A stretch of 41,823 nucleotides of DNA, taken from NCBI RefSeq assembly GCF_009687865.1, contig NZ_BLAE01000089.1:1-41823 (forward strand), given 5' to 3'. The stretch's first letter is position 1, and every line of letters starts with the position of its first letter. Below, piece after piece: positions 30,004 through 37,389 of this stretch. A program made the position numbers and the translations under genes. The notes beneath the pieces are model-generated. The model saw nothing but the letters and a program-made list of their open reading frames with translations, searched no databases and was not told the DNA's origin. The stretch is from Acrocarpospora macrocephala (lineage in GTDB: Bacteria > Actinomycetota > Actinomycetes > Streptosporangiales > Streptosporangiaceae).

Positions 30004-30454
30004 CCCGTCAGTTCAGAGGTACGAGAAATCTGTTGCCATTCGGTTGCCATCATGCGCGGGTGCCCGGAGTCCGACCGACGATGGCGATCTGAGCTGCGCG
30101 GACAAGCTCGCTTCAGCGCCGTTTCAGGCCCGTTCCAGCAGTCCCGGCTACTTTTACGGCCAACGGTATTGACCGCACTGCGCGCCTGACGCCATGACCC
30201 CACAGTCACCTGAAAGTTTCAGAAACCGAGACCATGGCCACCCAACGCAGTACGCACTTCTGACGACCTGCACTATCAGGAGGACAGGGCCTCAGTAAAT
30301 TCGACTATCGGCGAGCTAACAATGCTTTTGTGCCTGATGTTAACTCCCCCGCCCGCCGGTCCGAATTTTGCGTACAAAAAGCGAGATTGAAAGTCCGGCC
30401 ACAGCGGCACACACTCGGCGGCAAGAAGGCCCACCCCAGATTTGTGGAGGCACA
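30004..30454. other. Intergenic region with a small palindrome
   Basis: No credible gene is seen in this stretch between the leader ORF and the secreted repeat protein. CTGAAA/TTTCAG, a perfect 13-base dyad, lies at 30210-30222. The sequence is A/T-richer than its surroundings from about 30200 to 30400, fitting divergent promoters, but no convincing -35/-10 pair was found. Confidence 0.5.
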
Positions 30455-31354
30455 ATGGACCGAGCCGTAACCGGAATTCACGGGCGTAGAAAATCGATGC
30501 TCCGGCGCTTCTCGTCCGCCGCCGTCGCGGTGCTCGCCGTGGCATTCCTCTGCGTGCCGCCCGCCTCCGCCCTCGCGCTGCCGACGCCGAAGGATCTGAC
30601 CGCCTTCCTGGACCTCGAATGCTTCAAGACCAACCCGTACCAGCCGCCCGCCACCACGCTCACGCTGCGGCACATCAACCCGGTGCTCGGCAACCTGCCG
30701 ATCGAGACCGTCACCCTCGGCCAGCGGGAGCAGCTGTGCGTCCCGGTCGCCAAGAACACCCAGATGGCGCCGTCGCCCGCGATCGACTTCATCAAGTACA
30801 TCGACCTGGCCTGCTACAAGATCTCCGGCACCACGGTGACCACGGGGCTCGTGCTCAGCCACCTCAACCCGCTGTTCCAAACCCTGCCGCGCACGCAGAT
30901 CTCCATGAACACCCCGCAGCAGCTGTGCGTGCCGGTCATCAAGAACAACGCGGTCCCACCCGCTGACGTGCTCGCGCTGGTCCGGCACATCGACCTCAAG
31001 TGCTACGCCATCACCCCAAACACCCCGCTGAACCAGCAGTTGTCGCTGCGCCAGCTCAACCCCGTGCTGACGCCGATAATCCCCACGCACGGCGCGCAGG
31101 TCCTCTACGCCCGCCAGCTGTGCGTCCCGGTACAGAAGGCCGGCGACAATATCCCCGCTCAGGTGTTCGACATCGTCCGGTGGATCGACCTGGAGAAGTT
31201 CGACCTCGTCACCCCGGCCCTGCCCACGGTCACGCTGACCCTGCGGCACATCAATCCCGTCCTCGCCGGCCTCCCGGCCGAGCAGGCCACCCTCACCGGC
31301 GCCAGCCAGCTGGCCCTGCCGGTCGCCAAGAACGGCAATCTTCCCCCGGGCTGA
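30455..31354 (+). CDS. Secreted protein of four about 60-aa Cys-pair repeats
   Basis: 299 residues from ATG at 30455, with GGAGG at a spacing of 4. A signal peptide (LRRFSSAAVAVLAVAFLCVPPASALA) precedes four tandem units of about 60 residues. Each unit has the pattern F/YIDLxCYxI ... LRHINPVL ... QLCVPVAKN. The Cys pairs are 56/96, 120/158 and 183/223. The fourth unit has Lys248 and Ala287 in place of both Cys. The pattern resembles the DUF7450 repeat of secreted bacterial proteins, a family of unknown function. It is probably disulfide-stabilised and extracellular. A GC-rich terminator follows, so it is monocistronic, next to but separate from the NRPS operon. Confidence 0.85.
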   Translation: MDRAVTGIHGRRKSMLRRFSSAAVAVLAVAFLCVPPASALALPTPKDLTAFLDLECFKTNPYQPPATTLTLRHINPVLGNLPIETVTLGQREQLCVPVAKNTQMAPSPAIDFIKYIDLACYKISGTTVTTGLVLSHLNPLFQTLPRTQISMNTPQQLCVPVIKNNAVPPADVLALVRHIDLKCYAITPNTPLNQQLSLRQLNPVLTPIIPTHGAQVLYARQLCVPVQKAGDNIPAQVFDIVRWIDLEKFDLVTPALPTVTLTLRHINPVLAGLPAEQATLTGASQLALPVAKNGNLPPG

Positions 31355-31366
31355 TCCCCTGACCCA

Positions 31367-31398
31367 GAGTCCCTCCACCCGCGCCGGTGGAGGGACTC
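31367..31398 (+). terminator. Hairpin terminator after the secreted repeat protein
   Basis: Perfect 13-base arms GAGTCCCTCCACC and GGTGGAGGGACTC with a 6-base loop, 12 bases after the stop codon. It isolates the NRPS promoter downstream. Confidence 0.85.
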
Positions 31399-31439
31399 CG
31401 CCGTTGCGCCGGCAAGCGTCGCCCGGCCTGAAGACGACC

Positions 31440-31468
31440 TTGACGATGGAGATTCCGGATCCTACCCT
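31440..31468 (+). promoter_or_regulatory. Promoter of the NRPS operon
   Basis: TTGACG (31440-31445), a 17-base spacer and TACCCT (31463-31468) match primary-sigma elements. The start of transcription would fall near 31475, inside the palindrome described next and about 80 bases before the first NRPS gene. Confidence 0.55.
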
Positions 31469-31472
31469 CTTG

Positions 31473-31492
31473 CCGTGGGAGCGTTCCCACGG
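31473..31492. promoter_or_regulatory. CebR-like LacI-family operator on the NRPS promoter
   Basis: Arms CCGTGGGA and TCCCACGG flank a GCGT centre. The inner 14 bases TGGGAGCGTTCCCA differ at one position from the CebR box TGGGAGCGCTCCCA known from Streptomyces cellobiose regulators. Its place, four bases after the -10, would let a bound repressor block initiation. No LacI-type regulator is encoded in the window. Confidence 0.65.
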
Positions 31493-31554
31493 TCGGGCGC
31501 GCAGGCGTTCTCGAAGGCTCTGGTACGCGATCCCCCGTCCGATGGAGGTTATGG

Positions 31555-33036
31555 ATGCCCCGGAACCCGGCCTCACCTTTACAGCGGGGCATGTGGATCA
31601 ACGAGCTGGCCGGATCCGGCACCGCCTACCAGATGCCACTGGCGATCACCTTCGAGGGACCGCTCGACGTGCCCGCGCTGCTCGCGGCGTGCACGGCCGT
31701 ACTGGACCGGCACGAGCTCCTCGGCGCCGCGTTCCAGGAGGACGACGGCGAGCTGCTGATCGTCCGGGCGGACATTCCGCCGACCGTGGCGCACGGTCCG
31801 GAGCAGCCGCCGGATTTCGACGTCCGCTGGGGGCCGCTCGCCCGGTTCACCCTGACGGAGACCGGGCCGGACCGGCACCGCCTGCTGTTCGTCGCCCACC
31901 ACCTGGTCTTCGACGGAATGTCGAAGGACATCCTGGTCCGGGACCTCGCCGCGCTGTATGCCGGACGTCCGGTGGCGGCCGCCGCCCCGCCGTACGGCGA
32001 GGTGATCCAGGCCGAACGCGAGCGGGTCGAGGAGGCGCTCCCCGCGGCCGAAACCTTCTGGAAGGCCCGCTGGCGCGACCAGTTCGAGGTCTTCACGCCG
32101 GGCGGCGAGACCACCGCGTCCCGGCGCCCCGGGCCGGGCGCGAGCGTGGCGGCGCTGTCCGGTCTCCCCGATCCGGGTGACCTGGGCGTGACCACGTTCG
32201 AGCACGTCCTGACCGCGCTGCACGCGCTGCTGCACCGGTACGGCGCCCGCGAGCCGATCATCTCGGTGGACCTGTCCACCCGCGGGCCGGAAACCGCGGA
32301 GACCGTGGGCCTGCTGGTCAACGAGCTGCCCGTGGTGGCCAGGCCGGAGCCGGGCGGCACCTTCCGCGAGCTCGCCCACCAGGTACGCGACGAGCTGCGC
32401 GCCGTCTACGGCTTCCGTGAGGTGCCGCTGGCGCGGGCGCTCGGCGGCCTGTCGCCACGCGGCTCGCTCACGCCGGTCTCGGTGAGTTACCGGCGGCGCG
32501 GACCCGACCCCGACTTCCCCGGCCTGACGGCCGACGTGGACTGGGCGATGTTCAACGGCGGCGCCCGCGGCGCGCTGCACCTGCAGGCCGTCGAAGGTCC
32601 TGGCACGCTCGACGCCTGGCTCCGCTACGACCCGCGGGTGCTCACCGGCGAGGACGCGGCGCTGATCGCGGCCGACCTGCGGGCGGTGCTCGGCCAGCCG
32701 CCGGACACGCCCGTGTCGGAGCTCGTCCTGCCGTCTTCGGGGGCCCATACCAGCCAGGCACGGCCGACCGAGCCCGCCGCCGTCGCCGCGGCCGCGCCCC
32801 CGGAGATCGTCGAAGGCGTGACCCGGATCTGGTGCGACGTGCTCCGCCTCAAGCACGTCGGCCCGCACGAGGATCTGTTCGACCTGGGCGGGCACTCGAT
32901 GTCGATCATCAACATCATCGCCAGGATCGACAAGCAGTACGGCGTGGAGCTGCCCATGGACGTGTTCTTCGACAACCCGACCGTGGAGGGCGTGGCCGAG
33001 GCGGTCGCCCAAGCCTCGATCCATTCGGGGGCCTGA
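31555..33036 (+). CDS. NRPS didomain protein: condensation-thiolation (C-T)
   Basis: 493 residues; ATG at 31555 with GGAGG at a spacing of 6. Residues 5-about 395 are a condensation domain with the intact motif HHLVFDG (115-121) and the DFVNEL-type region GLLVNELPVVARPEPGGTF. An Ala/Pro-rich linker follows. A carrier domain at about 418-485 carries LFDLGGHSMS with the phosphopantetheine Ser448. No adenylation domain is attached, so the carrier must be loaded from another protein. The protein would hold an amino or acyl thioester and join it to a donor in the cytoplasm. The next gene starts five bases after its stop. Confidence 0.93.
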   Translation: MPRNPASPLQRGMWINELAGSGTAYQMPLAITFEGPLDVPALLAACTAVLDRHELLGAAFQEDDGELLIVRADIPPTVAHGPEQPPDFDVRWGPLARFTLTETGPDRHRLLFVAHHLVFDGMSKDILVRDLAALYAGRPVAAAAPPYGEVIQAERERVEEALPAAETFWKARWRDQFEVFTPGGETTASRRPGPGASVAALSGLPDPGDLGVTTFEHVLTALHALLHRYGAREPIISVDLSTRGPETAETVGLLVNELPVVARPEPGGTFRELAHQVRDELRAVYGFREVPLARALGGLSPRGSLTPVSVSYRRRGPDPDFPGLTADVDWAMFNGGARGALHLQAVEGPGTLDAWLRYDPRVLTGEDAALIAADLRAVLGQPPDTPVSELVLPSSGAHTSQARPTEPAAVAAAAPPEIVEGVTRIWCDVLRLKHVGPHEDLFDLGGHSMSIINIIARIDKQYGVELPMDVFFDNPTVEGVAEAVAQASIHSGA

Positions 33037-33041
33037 CCCGC

Positions 33042-34289
33042 ATGCACGCCACGTTCGACACCGGCCAGGACGAGTGGACCGGCCCGCTCGCCTGGGGCCA
33101 GCGCTCCATCTGGGAGGCGATCCGGCAGGTCGGCCCGTCCGGGGATCGGTACTTCAACTTCAGCAGGGTGGTGCGGGTTCCGCGCGGGGCACCCGCCGCG
33201 GACGTGGCCACGGTGGTGGCCGCGCTCGGTGTCGTGGTGGCCCGGCACGACTCGCTGCGCACGCGGGTACGGGTAGGGGCCGACGGCGAGCCGTACCAGG
33301 TGGTGGCGGGCGGCGGGGCGATACCGGTCGAGATCGTGGAGTCGGCCGCCGAGGAGGAGCGGCTGGTGGGGGTGCGGTTCGAGTTCGGCTCGGACTGGCC
33401 GCTGCGGGTGGCCCTGGTGGTGTCGGCCGGCCAGGTGCGGGAGGTGGTGCTGGTCTTCTGCCACGTCGCCGCGGACGGGTACGCGGCTGACCTGGTCGCC
33501 AGGGATCTGCGCCTGACCCTGCTGCGCGGCGCCCCGCCCGGCGAGCCGGAGCAGCTGCGCGAGCTGGTCGCCGCGCAGTCGGGGCAGGACGTGTCCCGCA
33601 GCGAACGCGCGATGGAGTTCTGGGCGGCGCAGTCGCTCGGCGGGCCGCTGCTCGACCGGCGGCGCGAACCCTCGGACGGGCCGCGCTACCAGCGGGCGGC
33701 GATCTTCTCGCCCGCCATGGACCGAGCCTCTCGCGTGCTGGCGCAGCGGTACGGCGTCAACGGGTCCACCATCCTGCTGGTGGCCGCCTGCGTGCTGGTG
33801 GGCCGGGCGGCCGGGCGGCCGAGGTCGGCCATGACGCCGCTGGTCAACAATCGTTTCCTGGCCAGGCACAGTGAGGTGGTCACCTCGCTCGCTCAGCTGG
33901 GCCTGCTCGTGGTCGACTCCGGCCGGGCCGACTTCAACCAGGTGATGGCGGATGCCAGGACCGCGGCGCTGCGCGCGTACCGGCATGCTTACTACGATCA
34001 GGCGGCGCTCAACGTCCGGCTCGCCGGAGCCGATCCGCTGTGCTGTTTCAACGATCAGCGGGCGGCGGAGACCACCGGGGTGCCGATCCCGGGCGGGGCC
34101 GAGCCGGGTGAGACCGTGGTGAAGGCGGAGAGCGGCCTGGACGAGCTCAACTGCCGGTTCTGCGTGCATGTGACCGGGAATCCGGGACAGCTCAAGGTGA
34201 TGGTCACCGCCGATACCCACTACCTCGGGGCCGGGGATCTGGAGACCCTGCTTCGCGAGATGGAATCGCTCGTCGTGGCGGCCGGATAG
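33042..34289 (+). CDS. Standalone condensation-domain protein with CHxxxDG motif
   Basis: 415 residues from ATG at 33042; a longer reading overlaps the upstream gene and is rejected. The N-lobe opens LAWGQRSIWEAIRQVGPSGDRYFNFSRV, the equivalent of motif C1 (xxAQxxxW). The active-site motif reads CHVAADG (140-146): the catalytic second His and the DG are kept, but the first His is Cys. Later segments (PLVNNRFLARHSEVVTSLAQLG, then DPLCCFNDQRAA) match the C-lobe. It has no carrier domain. It may catalyse an off-line condensation or release step on thioesters held by the neighbouring carriers, or have a specialised non-peptide reaction. Confidence 0.87.
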   Translation: MHATFDTGQDEWTGPLAWGQRSIWEAIRQVGPSGDRYFNFSRVVRVPRGAPAADVATVVAALGVVVARHDSLRTRVRVGADGEPYQVVAGGGAIPVEIVESAAEEERLVGVRFEFGSDWPLRVALVVSAGQVREVVLVFCHVAADGYAADLVARDLRLTLLRGAPPGEPEQLRELVAAQSGQDVSRSERAMEFWAAQSLGGPLLDRRREPSDGPRYQRAAIFSPAMDRASRVLAQRYGVNGSTILLVAACVLVGRAAGRPRSAMTPLVNNRFLARHSEVVTSLAQLGLLVVDSGRADFNQVMADARTAALRAYRHAYYDQAALNVRLAGADPLCCFNDQRAAETTGVPIPGGAEPGETVVKAESGLDELNCRFCVHVTGNPGQLKVMVTADTHYLGAGDLETLLREMESLVVAAG

Positions 34290-34314: not shown

Positions 34315-37300
34315 ATGTCTGCCGAGGTGAACCGGCTTCCGCTCTCCGCCGACCAGGAACGCCTCTGGTTTCTGCAGCAGGTCGATCCCGCCGACCCCAC
34401 CTACCATCTTTCCCACACCGCCCGGCTCATCGGACCGCTCGATGTCTCGGCGCTGACCTGCGCGTTTCAGGAGATCGTCGCGCGTCACGAAGCGCTGCGT
34501 GCCAGGTTTCCGGCCGTGGACGGCAGTCCTTCGCAGGTCATCGATCCGCCCGGAGATTTCGGGCTGGAGACCCTGACTTGCGAGGGGTCGGTGGAGGCGC
34601 TGGTGGCCGGGCTGGCCGCCCGGCCGTTCGACCTGGCCAGGGATCGGCTGATCCGGGTCACGCTGATCAGGACCGGCCCGGAGGAGCATGTCCTGTCGGT
34701 GGTCATGCATCATGTCGTCGCGGATGGGCGTTCGATCGGCATCCTCCTGGGCGAGCTGTCCGATCTGTACTCCGCGTTCTGCAAAGGTGAGCCCTCGCCA
34801 CTGCCGCCGTTGCGGGCGCGGTGGGCGGATTTCGTCCGCGCGGAGACCGCCGACGGCGAGTCGCTGGCGTACTGGAAGGATCAGCTGGCCGACGCGCCGC
34901 CGTTGCAATTGTCCACCGACCGGCGTCGGCCGGCCGTCGCGAGTCCCGACAGCGCTCTCGTCCGGCACAAGTTGCGCGGGCCGCTGGTGGCGCGCTTCGC
35001 GGCGGTTGCCGCTGCGGCGCGGTGCACGCCGTTCATGGCGCTCATGGCCGCCTACCAGGCGCTACTCGCCGCGCGGAGCGGTCAGCATGACTTTTGCGTC
35101 GGCTTTCCGACGGCCGGAAGGGACGGCCAGGAGGACGACCAGCTGATCGGTTACTTCGCCAGCGTCGCGGTGCTGAGGGCGGATCTGTCCGGCGACCCGA
35201 CGTTCCGGGAGTTGATGCATCGGACGCGGTCCCGCTTGATGACCGCGCTCCGGCATCGGAAGCTGCCGCTCGAAAGGCTGCTCACCGCGCTGGACATCGA
35301 ACGCGATCTCAGCCGCCCGCCTTTGTTCCAGACGACGTTCGGGATGACCTACGACGCGAGCGACCAGGCCATCCGGCTGGCCGGGCTGCAAACCCACTGG
35401 CTCGAGACCGGCTTCACCCACTCGCCGTACGAGCTGAAGCTCGACATCTTCGAGCACGGCGGCGAGTGGCTGATGATGCTCGTCTACAACCGCGACCTGT
35501 TCGACGCGGACACGATCGAGCGCTTCGCCCGCGACTTCGAATCCCTGCTGTCCCGGATCGCCGATGATCCTCAGGTACGGCTGTCGCACCTCACGGCCCC
35601 CTCCGGCGCTGAACGCAACCTGTTGATCCACGACTGGAATCGGGTGGCACCGCCCGAGCGAAGGCTGTTTCCCGACCTCTTCTCCGAGCAGGTCGTGCTC
35701 CGGCCGGAGGCGATCGCGGTGAGTTGCGGGCCGGTGCGGCTGAGCTACGCCGAGCTCGACCGCCGCGCCGACGAGCTGGCCGCCCAGCTGGGGGTACGGC
35801 CCGGGGACCGTGTGGCGGTGTGCCTGCCCCGGTCGGTGGAGGCGCTGGTGGCGCTACTGGCCGTGCAGCGGACCGGCGCCGCGTACGTGCCGCTCGATCC
35901 CGACTACCCGGCCGCACGGCTGGCCTTCGTCCTGGCCGACTGCGGCGCTTCCCTGGTGCTCGCGAGCCGCGAGACCGCCGCCGTCCTGCCCGCCCATGCC
36001 GTGCGAACCGTGCTGGTGGACGAGCCGGAGCGCGGGCAGGAATTCCGCCGGACGCGCGTGCGCGGCGACGACACCGCGTACGTGCTCTACACCTCCGGTT
36101 CGACCGGCCGCCCCAAGGGGGTCGCGGTGCCGCATGCCGCGCTCGGGAACCTGCTCGCCGCGATGGCGGACCTGGTCGGCGCGACATCCCAGGACGTCTG
36201 GCTGGGGCTGACCTCCCTGTCGTTCGACATCTCCGCCCTCGAGCTCTATCTGCCGCTGGCCACCGGAGGCCGGGTGGAGATCGCCGACACCGCGGCCGAC
36301 GGCTTCCAGCAGGTCCGGCTGATCCAGCAGGCCGGAATCACCCACGTCCAAGCCACCCCGTCCGGCTGGCGCGTGTTGCTGGAATGTGGGCTCCGCGACC
36401 CGGCACTGACCGCCCTGGTAGGCGGCGAAGCCCTCAGCGGCGAACTGGCGAACCGACTGCGAGCCGCCGCCGGACGGCTGTTCAACGTCTACGGGCCGAC
36501 CGAGACCACAATCTGGTCAACCGCCTGGCCCGTCCCCGCCAGCCTGGGCGAGGTGCGCATCGGCGGCCCCATCCGGGGAACCCAGGTGTACGTCGTCGGT
36601 GATCACCTCGAACTGGTCCGCCAGGGCGTACCCGGCGAACTGGTCATCGGCGGTGCGGGGGTCGCACACGGCTACCTGGGACGGCCCGGCCTGACCGCCG
36701 AGCGGTTCGTCCCCGATCCGTTCGGATCGGCGGGTGGGCGTTTGTACCGGACCGGCGATCGGGTGCGCTGGCATGACGACGGCAGCCTGGAATTCCTCGG
36801 CCGCGCCGACAACCAGGTCAAACTGCGCGGCCACCGGATCGAGCTGGGCGAAGTGGAAGCGGCCTGCGAGGCCGTGCCTGGCGTGGTGGCGGCGGTCGCC
36901 GCCGTACACGAGGAGAATCTGGTCGCCTACCTCGTCGGCGAGGTGGACCCGGACGGCGTGCGCGCGGAGCTGGCCGAACGCCTGCCCGCCTACCTGGTGC
37001 CCGCCTGGTTCATCCGGCTCGAAGCGCTGCCGCTGACGCCCAACGGCAAACTCGACCGGCGGGCGCTCCCTGCCCCGCAGGCGCCCGAGACGAGGTTCGT
37101 CGCCCCCAGCGGGGACGCCGAGGAACTGGTCGCCGACATCTGGTGCGAGTTGCTCGGCCTGGAGCGGGTCAGCGCGGTAGACGACTTCTTCCGGCTCGGC
37201 GGGCACTCCCTGCTCGCCGTGCGGGTCAGTGCCCGGCTGCGGGCGCTGGCGGGGGTGGAACTGCCGATCTTGACGATGTTCACCCATCGCACGGTGGCCG

Positions 37301-37389
37301 AGCTCGCCGCCGAGTTGGAGGAGCGGCTGCTGTCGGAACTGTCGGAGCTGTCCGAGGAAGAGGCCGAACGGCTCCTCGACCGCCCCTGA
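34315..37389 (+). CDS. NRPS module C-A-T, predicted glycine-activating
   Basis: 1024 residues; ATG with AAGGAGA at a spacing of about 6. C domain at about 5-430 with MHHVVADG (His132/133, Asp137). A domain at about 450-925: A3 YTSGSTGRPKG, A4 LSFDISALE, A5 NVYGPTETT, A7 YRTGD, A8 RADNQVKLRGHRIELGEVE, A10 Lys912 in LTPNGKLDR. T domain at about 935-1005 with LGGHSLL (Ser965). Pocket residues Asp638, Ile639, Leu642, Gln679, Leu701, Gly703, Val725, Ile733, Trp734 and Lys912 give DILQLGVIWK, essentially the glycine code. There is no thioesterase, reductase or epimerase domain. The Glu-rich C-terminal tail after T (EERLLSELSELSEEEAE) may be a docking helix. Confidence 0.96.
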   Translation: MSAEVNRLPLSADQERLWFLQQVDPADPTYHLSHTARLIGPLDVSALTCAFQEIVARHEALRARFPAVDGSPSQVIDPPGDFGLETLTCEGSVEALVAGLAARPFDLARDRLIRVTLIRTGPEEHVLSVVMHHVVADGRSIGILLGELSDLYSAFCKGEPSPLPPLRARWADFVRAETADGESLAYWKDQLADAPPLQLSTDRRRPAVASPDSALVRHKLRGPLVARFAAVAAAARCTPFMALMAAYQALLAARSGQHDFCVGFPTAGRDGQEDDQLIGYFASVAVLRADLSGDPTFRELMHRTRSRLMTALRHRKLPLERLLTALDIERDLSRPPLFQTTFGMTYDASDQAIRLAGLQTHWLETGFTHSPYELKLDIFEHGGEWLMMLVYNRDLFDADTIERFARDFESLLSRIADDPQVRLSHLTAPSGAERNLLIHDWNRVAPPERRLFPDLFSEQVVLRPEAIAVSCGPVRLSYAELDRRADELAAQLGVRPGDRVAVCLPRSVEALVALLAVQRTGAAYVPLDPDYPAARLAFVLADCGASLVLASRETAAVLPAHAVRTVLVDEPERGQEFRRTRVRGDDTAYVLYTSGSTGRPKGVAVPHAALGNLLAAMADLVGATSQDVWLGLTSLSFDISALELYLPLATGGRVEIADTAADGFQQVRLIQQAGITHVQATPSGWRVLLECGLRDPALTALVGGEALSGELANRLRAAAGRLFNVYGPTETTIWSTAWPVPASLGEVRIGGPIRGTQVYVVGDHLELVRQGVPGELVIGGAGVAHGYLGRPGLTAERFVPDPFGSAGGRLYRTGDRVRWHDDGSLEFLGRADNQVKLRGHRIELGEVEAACEAVPGVVAAVAAVHEENLVAYLVGEVDPDGVRAELAERLPAYLVPAWFIRLEALPLTPNGKLDRRALPAPQAPETRFVAPSGDAEELVADIWCELLGLERVSAVDDFFRLGGHSLLAVRVSARLRALAGVELPILTMFTHRTVAELAAELEERLLSELSELSEEEAERLLDRP

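Follow-up and report, generated by a model that had tools for sequence, protein, structure and literature searches.

Putative CelR-type operators at nonribosomal peptide synthetase promoters of Acrocarpospora macrocephala and related Streptosporangiaceae

In Streptomyces scabies, CebR controls the nonribosomal peptide synthetase (NRPS) genes for thaxtomin, as described in the available portions of PMC5332605 and PMC12527672. According to the same portions, the boxes on virulence metabolite genes are imperfect and those on most cellulase genes are perfect, and the thaxtomin boxes are located at -786/-899 or inside txtB. The available part of PMC5332605 argues that the imperfect thaxtomin boxes are bound more weakly than the perfect cellulase boxes. 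The enzymes of the rotihibin NRPS cluster of S. scabies rise with cellobiose, as is proposed here for other NRPS operons, and the cluster also rises with glucose in a cebR-independent manner (PMC8552735, available portion).

In Thermobifida fusca and other actinobacteria, the CelR regulon comprises the 14-mer operator, one boxed operon with ABC transporter, beta-glucosidase and CelR, and cellulase targets (PMC3377646, available portion), and the genome studied here shares all of these. The same 2012 survey places CelR sites of Streptosporangium roseum near "genes related to pyruvate dehydrogenase", and the word "nonribosomal" occurs 0 times in the available main text. In cellulolytic Streptomyces, the box is tied to cellulose-degrading genes (PMC4898821, in the available text of which "nonribosomal" likewise occurs 0 times). 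Among the literature matches listed, mostly without subscription papers, there was no report of CelR/CebR control of NRPS genes in Streptosporangiaceae. The link between CebR/CelR and NRPS genes is itself known from thaxtomin, whereas the Streptosporangiaceae case appears to be new among these matches.

The DNA described here shares with the thaxtomin genes (txtA, txtB, txtR) the linkage of CebR-type boxes to NRPS genes. It differs in that the boxes lie at the promoter start, in that several separate NRPS operons are involved, in the bacterial family, and in the changed base, which produces what we call the GTT form of the box (no match on either strand in the literature text searched). The window is the whole stretch analyzed, 41,823 nucleotides of contig C89 in the 12.1 Mb, 166-contig genome of Acrocarpospora macrocephala. 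Its relevant features are:

31440..31445, + strand, -35 hexamer TTGACG, also TTGACG in the four named Acrocarpospora orthologues, there with 17-18 bp spacing
31463..31468, + strand, -10 hexamer TACCCT, after a 17-bp spacer
31473..31492, + strand, near-perfect 20-bp extended palindrome CCGTGGGAGCGTTCCCACGG enclosing the box, its outer arms not conserved in every relative
31476..31489, + strand, CelR/CebR box in GTT form, TGGGAGCGTTCCCA, from its consensus match; predicted to overlap the transcription start
31544..31548, + strand, ribosome-binding site GGAGG, by eye, followed by ATG at 31555
31555..33036, + strand, NRPS protein C-T (condensation + carrier), 493 aa, no adenylation domain found in the domain scan
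33042..34289, + strand, lone condensation-like protein, 415 aa, with CHVAADG, domain-scanned as the longer ORF 32832-34289
34315..37389, + strand, NRPS module C-A-T, 1024 aa, from the domain scan

The first-pass annotation had reported a sequence one base from the CebR consensus directly after TTGACG-17-TACCCT. Both observations were borne out, as TGGGAGCGTTCCCA differs from the CebR/CelR consensus TGGGAGCGCTCCCA at a single base and lies 7 bp downstream of TACCCT. Inclusion of the 14-mer in the 20-bp palindrome explains why that annotation ended at 31492. The box ends 65 bp before the three-gene NRPS operon, in which the genes are separated by 5 bp (C-T/C) and 25 bp (C/C-A-T), and it starts 79 bp 5' of the start codon, compared to 82-85 bp in 4/4 named Acrocarpospora orthologues. 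A generic sigma-70 scan of positions 30300-31700 called no promoter, because TACCCT fits only 3/6 of TATAAT and the scan rule was 4. Therefore, the promoter assignment rests on conservation. Judged in this way, the putative promoter of the NRPS operon carries the candidate operator, a 14-bp palindrome of the type that defines CelR/CebR regulons and tolerates few changes, with one mismatch in this case. The box would begin at about the expected transcription start, which is a usual place for a blocking repressor.

Across the genome, 29 boxes with at most one mismatch were found, 17 of them perfect and 12 altered at one base. At this threshold the reversed pattern was found 0 times, ruling out a chance match. 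With up to two mismatches, the signal sank into noise (107 sites vs 61 for the control), and boxes with two mismatches were too noisy to be usable. In the window alone, up to three mismatches yielded 3 sites compared to a shuffle mean of 5.64, and only one of these has a single mismatch. A Pfam scan of 10 non-NRPS box neighbours gave matches for 8 and none for the remaining 2; the neighbours of all other boxes were read by eye only. The matches were GH48 (2), GH6 (2), GH5, aldose epimerase, solute-binding protein and LacI, and all four GH48/GH6 proteins also carry CBM2. The box set therefore holds cellulases, with GH48, GH6 and GH5 targets. One of the 12 single-change boxes (C11:71161) is located within the C11 LacI gene itself. 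Three further LacI genes (C17:174849, C29:80228, C35:36237) adjoin CelR boxes, which suggests a layered network of sugar regulators.

A check for CebR/LacI genes, proposed in the first-pass annotation, led to a CelR/CebR-type LacI in a cellobiose-type operon on contig C11. This operon is headed by two boxes (C11:65298 and C11:65428) and contains genes for a solute-binding protein, two permease-like proteins (by eye), a GH1 beta-glucosidase matching TIGR03356, and the LacI protein. The latter (C11:70410-71396) is the best match of the genome to PDB chain 5ysz, with 62% identity compared to 54% for the next LacI, and the alignment showed a nearly identical recognition helix and hinge. The PDB listing labels 5ysz "LacI family" only; we take 5YSZ to be the complex of T. 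fusca CelR with cellobiose. By sequence and gene order, the C11 protein is thus a probable CelR orthologue, encoded in a boxed operon with a cellobiose-type transporter and a beta-glucosidase.

By hand count, 9/29 boxes, spread over 7 promoter regions, stand before NRPS operons:

C3:98516 and C3:98682, boxes between divergent NRPS genes
C3:131726, box before an NRPS operon
C11:73106, box before the NRPS operon just beyond celR
C52:64842, box before an NRPS operon
C59:54341 and C59:54458, boxes before an NRPS operon
C59:69107, box before a glycosyltransferase-like gene, then C-A-T
C89, window box 31476-31489, before C-T / C / C-A-T

All six GTT boxes of the genome are at NRPS promoters, compared to 1/15 perfect boxes with no GTT box beside them (Fisher p 1.3e-4, from hand counts). 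The imperfect GTT boxes on NRPS genes would fit the S. scabies pattern of weaker imperfect boxes. No box with at most one mismatch was found on the NRPS contigs C33, C38, C56, C69, C80 and C107. The window operon and the one at C59:69107 have near-copies of the same promoter, and their C-A-T proteins share 86% identity. The two boxes lie 7.8 kb from each other in A. pleiomorpha, and A. phusangensis has a single operon with C-T, C, glycosyltransferase-like gene and C-A-T. A local rearrangement that carried the promoter along is therefore likely.

Two neighbourhoods deserve separate mention. On C3, box C3:236006 is followed by a gene for a likely secreted protein and then, on the same strand, by one for a lone condensation-like protein (C3:230858-232720; locus L257, C3:230858-236019); this case was left out of the NRPS box count. 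The NRPS next to celR on C11 (L062:3888-9481) is followed by a GT4-like glycosyltransferase and by pyruvate-dehydrogenase-like E1 alpha/beta and E2, assignments for which the family scores fell short of the curated cut-offs; by eye, a GH1-like protein is also present. An unusual acyl supply is a possible role for these pyruvate-dehydrogenase-like genes by the NRPS.

The arrangement of the window is conserved in the genus. The first protein of the operon (C-T) is 95% identical in A. pleiomorpha, 90% in A. corrugata, 87% in A. catenulata and 85% in A. phusangensis. Box and promoter are retained in 4/4 of these named orthologues, and the 14-mer is unchanged in all of them and in this genome, while the surrounding bases vary. 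Altogether 26 named C-T loci were compared, and boxes were present at 18 of them, 4 from Acrocarpospora and 14 from other genera. In 14/14 of the latter, from Microbispora (7), Microtetraspora (4), Streptosporangium (2) and Sphaerimonospora (1), the boxes are located 7.2-8.0 kb upstream. Gene-by-gene reading of four loci (L073, L074, L076, L093) indicated that they head a larger NRPS cluster. In several genomes the boxed NRPS operon lies opposite a gene that resembles, by eye, the pyruvate-dehydrogenase-E1-like gene of C11, comparable to the surroundings of CelR sites in S. roseum. The other 8/26 loci had no box in the DNA examined; they come from four Nonomuraea (for one of which, L089, just 591 bp upstream were examined), Microbispora corallina, a second A. 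catenulata copy, Virgisporangium and Micromonospora. Three Nonomuraea, M. corallina and the second A. catenulata copy, all boxless, formed one supported clade in the tree. The boxed NRPS operon of A. corrugata is directly preceded by a perfect box and what, by eye, is a CBM2-like cellulase-type gene (L070:3899-6163).

The promoter layout recurs as well. A TTGAC-type hexamer and TANNNT, 17-18 bp apart, were found 3-11 bp upstream of the box at 32/41 hand-chosen boxes. The -10 hexamers at these boxes were mostly TACCCT or TAGCCT, and in other genera the -35 hexamer reads TTGAC(G/C/T). The layout was absent at 9/41 boxes, namely C3:131726 with its counterparts L129, L132 and L138, and C3:98516, C59:54341, C59:54458, C11:73106 and C11:65428, the last of which belongs to the transporter promoter.

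The GTT form was then surveyed in 120 genomes of the family. It was present in 43/120, and GTT boxes were located at NRPS operons in 22/120, with 12 genus labels including that of this genome. Among GTT-bearing genomes other than this one, 21/42 have a GTT box at an NRPS operon. A site was scored NRPS if its first gene was no more than 700 bp away and one of the first three genes had a C or A domain; as genes came from a simple caller and domains from small HMMs trained on this genome, the domain counts are approximate. The 72 GTT sites of the other genomes divided into 35 scored NRPS and 37 not so scored; the NRPS fraction was 13/14 in three other Acrocarpospora and 22/58 elsewhere. GTT by itself is therefore no NRPS label outside Acrocarpospora, even though the fraction was 6/6 in the present genome, and its use as a general label was rejected. 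In other genera, GTT sites also precede binding-protein- or secreted-protein-like genes (by eye).

Perfect boxes, which were sampled in the three Acrocarpospora and G091 and in the stretches around GTT sites, were scored NRPS in 5/5 cases in the three Acrocarpospora and 14/16 elsewhere if paired with GTT. For the three other Acrocarpospora, the comparison of 13/14 with 4/43 gave a Fisher p of 1.2e-8, which overstates the evidence because orthologous sites in related species are not independent. Two of the 4 in the second fraction precede a likely cellulase gene and then an NRPS operon, and two belong to the NRPS next to celR.

Among the best 30 C-T relatives in the 120 genomes (at least 595 bits), 26 had a box on the coding side at no more than 8.3 kb upstream, a count read from box positions and not from gene-by-gene continuity at each locus. 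The 4/30 without a box at the cluster head were G003 (contig end), G004, G070 and the C3 copy of G028, in which a box is located elsewhere in the locus. The named loci and the 120-genome set overlap (e.g. A. catenulata, A. corrugata, A. phusangensis, Microtetraspora glauca, Sphaerimonospora), and their counts were never summed. In three other genomes (G097, G084, G005), the lone C gene forms a unit of its own behind the same GTT promoter (L147, L180, L187). As these genomes also carry the boxed main NRPS cluster elsewhere, one pathway spread over separate loci is suggested.

The promoter, the box, the box set, the candidate CelR and their conservation are read from the DNA itself, and from them we infer how the operon may be regulated. 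It is very probable that the 14-mer is the operator of the CelR (CebR) repressor of this genome, that it controls the NRPS operons, and that cello-oligosaccharides release it. CelR, most likely the LacI protein encoded on C11 with the cellobiose-type ABC transporter and GH1 beta-glucosidase, would bind the box at the transcription start of TTGACG-17-TACCCT and block the C-T / C / C-A-T operon. Secreted cellulases would produce cellobiose or cellotriose, which would be imported and release CelR, so that the NRPS operon and the cellulases would be switched on jointly. Six other NRPS promoter regions carry this operator, usually in the one-base altered and perhaps more weakly bound GTT form. As the operator is common to seven such regions, scattered peptide-synthesis genes would be co-induced as one regulon and might co-operate in making a product. 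The first-pass annotation had suggested that a similar sugar-sensing switch may have arisen here. The switch is upheld by the CelR-type LacI and by a box set that includes cellulases; "arisen here" is too narrow, because the arrangement is common to the four named Acrocarpospora orthologues and to NRPS operons of other genera. The switch is strongly supported, and the inducer is a matter of inference.

A different LacI, for example a C121 or C17 paralogue, might bind the box in response to another sugar, with GTT marking a second regulator. The genome has 51 LacI-domain matches, and two paralogous proteins on C121 are 54% and 49% identical to 5ysz and could recognise similar DNA. The boxes adjoining LacI genes on C17, C29 and C35, and the exclusive placement of the six GTT boxes at NRPS promoters, point in the same direction. 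However, it is the C11 protein that matches 5ysz best and lies in an operon headed by such boxes, GTT sites of other genera are also found before binding-protein- or secreted-protein-like genes (by eye), and many NRPS promoters have a GTT box together with a perfect one. We therefore regard a second regulator as improbable.

Duplication of the promoter, as seen in the near-copies at the window and C59:69107 with their similar C-A-T proteins, might also have left behind an operator that no longer matters. This is distinctly less probable still, since the 14-mer has remained unchanged in five Acrocarpospora and the layout recurs in other genera. Finally, the 20-bp palindrome can form a hairpin in the leader transcript and might act as an RNA attenuator. 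Its folding was no better than that of shuffled sequences (z -0.07 in the window; 0.37, -0.97, -0.65 and -0.57 in four relatives), no terminator was found in the scan of 30300-31700, and the 14-mer is kept but the outer palindrome arms are not. Attenuation was rejected as hardly credible.

In laboratory culture the majority of actinobacterial NRPS pathways stay silent, and the signals that elicit them in nature are not known. Cellulose sugars may awaken uncharacterised NRPS pathways in Acrocarpospora and related genera. If these are CelR-controlled, cellobiose, cellotriose or cellulose would be the predicted elicitor of uncharacterised peptides across 12 genus labels of the family. The link between cellulose sensing and NRPS genes would then extend beyond plant-pathogenic Streptomyces, and the division into perfect boxes for cellulases and imperfect ones for metabolite genes would be a recurring pattern.

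A sister NRPS type may be connected differently. At its 12 loci (L241, L242, L244-L251, L253, L256), the DNA examined contained no box at the one-mismatch threshold. A ROK-type regulator gene was present at 8/12, in 6 of these 8 beside a divergent binding-protein gene (by eye, cf. L248); Pfam matches at L248 were GH3, SBP, ROK, Peptidase_M15 (D-Ala-D-Ala-dipeptidase-like) and DMFA2_C. Regulation of the sister type by ROK is a guess from gene position. Palindromes of the AAAGATTCTTTCC type were noted in sister-type NRPS intergenic regions, the 13-mer itself in 6/14 NRPS regions compared and in 0/6 SBP/ROK regions, and therefore no operator common to both was seen. Tentatively, and with more doubt than confidence, we suggest that a Streptosporangiaceae NRPS chassis (A, C-T, carrier, lone C, C-A-T, pyruvate-dehydrogenase-like E1) might be a polysaccharide-coupled system wired to different sugar sensors. 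One type would be under CelR boxes and cellulose, and the sister type, beside an SBP/permease/GH3/ROK operon, would have its own repeated palindromes. In Acrocarpospora, the scattered genes of the first type would be joined by the shared altered operator, forming a "cluster" by regulation and not by position.

Some features of the proteins were also noted. Upstream of the operon, the window encodes a likely secreted protein with about four repeats (30455-31354; LTLRHINPVL...QLCVPVAKN), for which a Pfam scan gave no match and which adjoins the operon in A. pleiomorpha (L069) too. In lone condensation-like proteins, the first His of HHxxxDG is replaced by Cys or Ser (CHVAADG in the window; SHLAVDG), and several aligned rows lack the motif. 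The A-domain residues of C-A-T, read by motif, are DILQLGVIW, presumably a glycine-like code.
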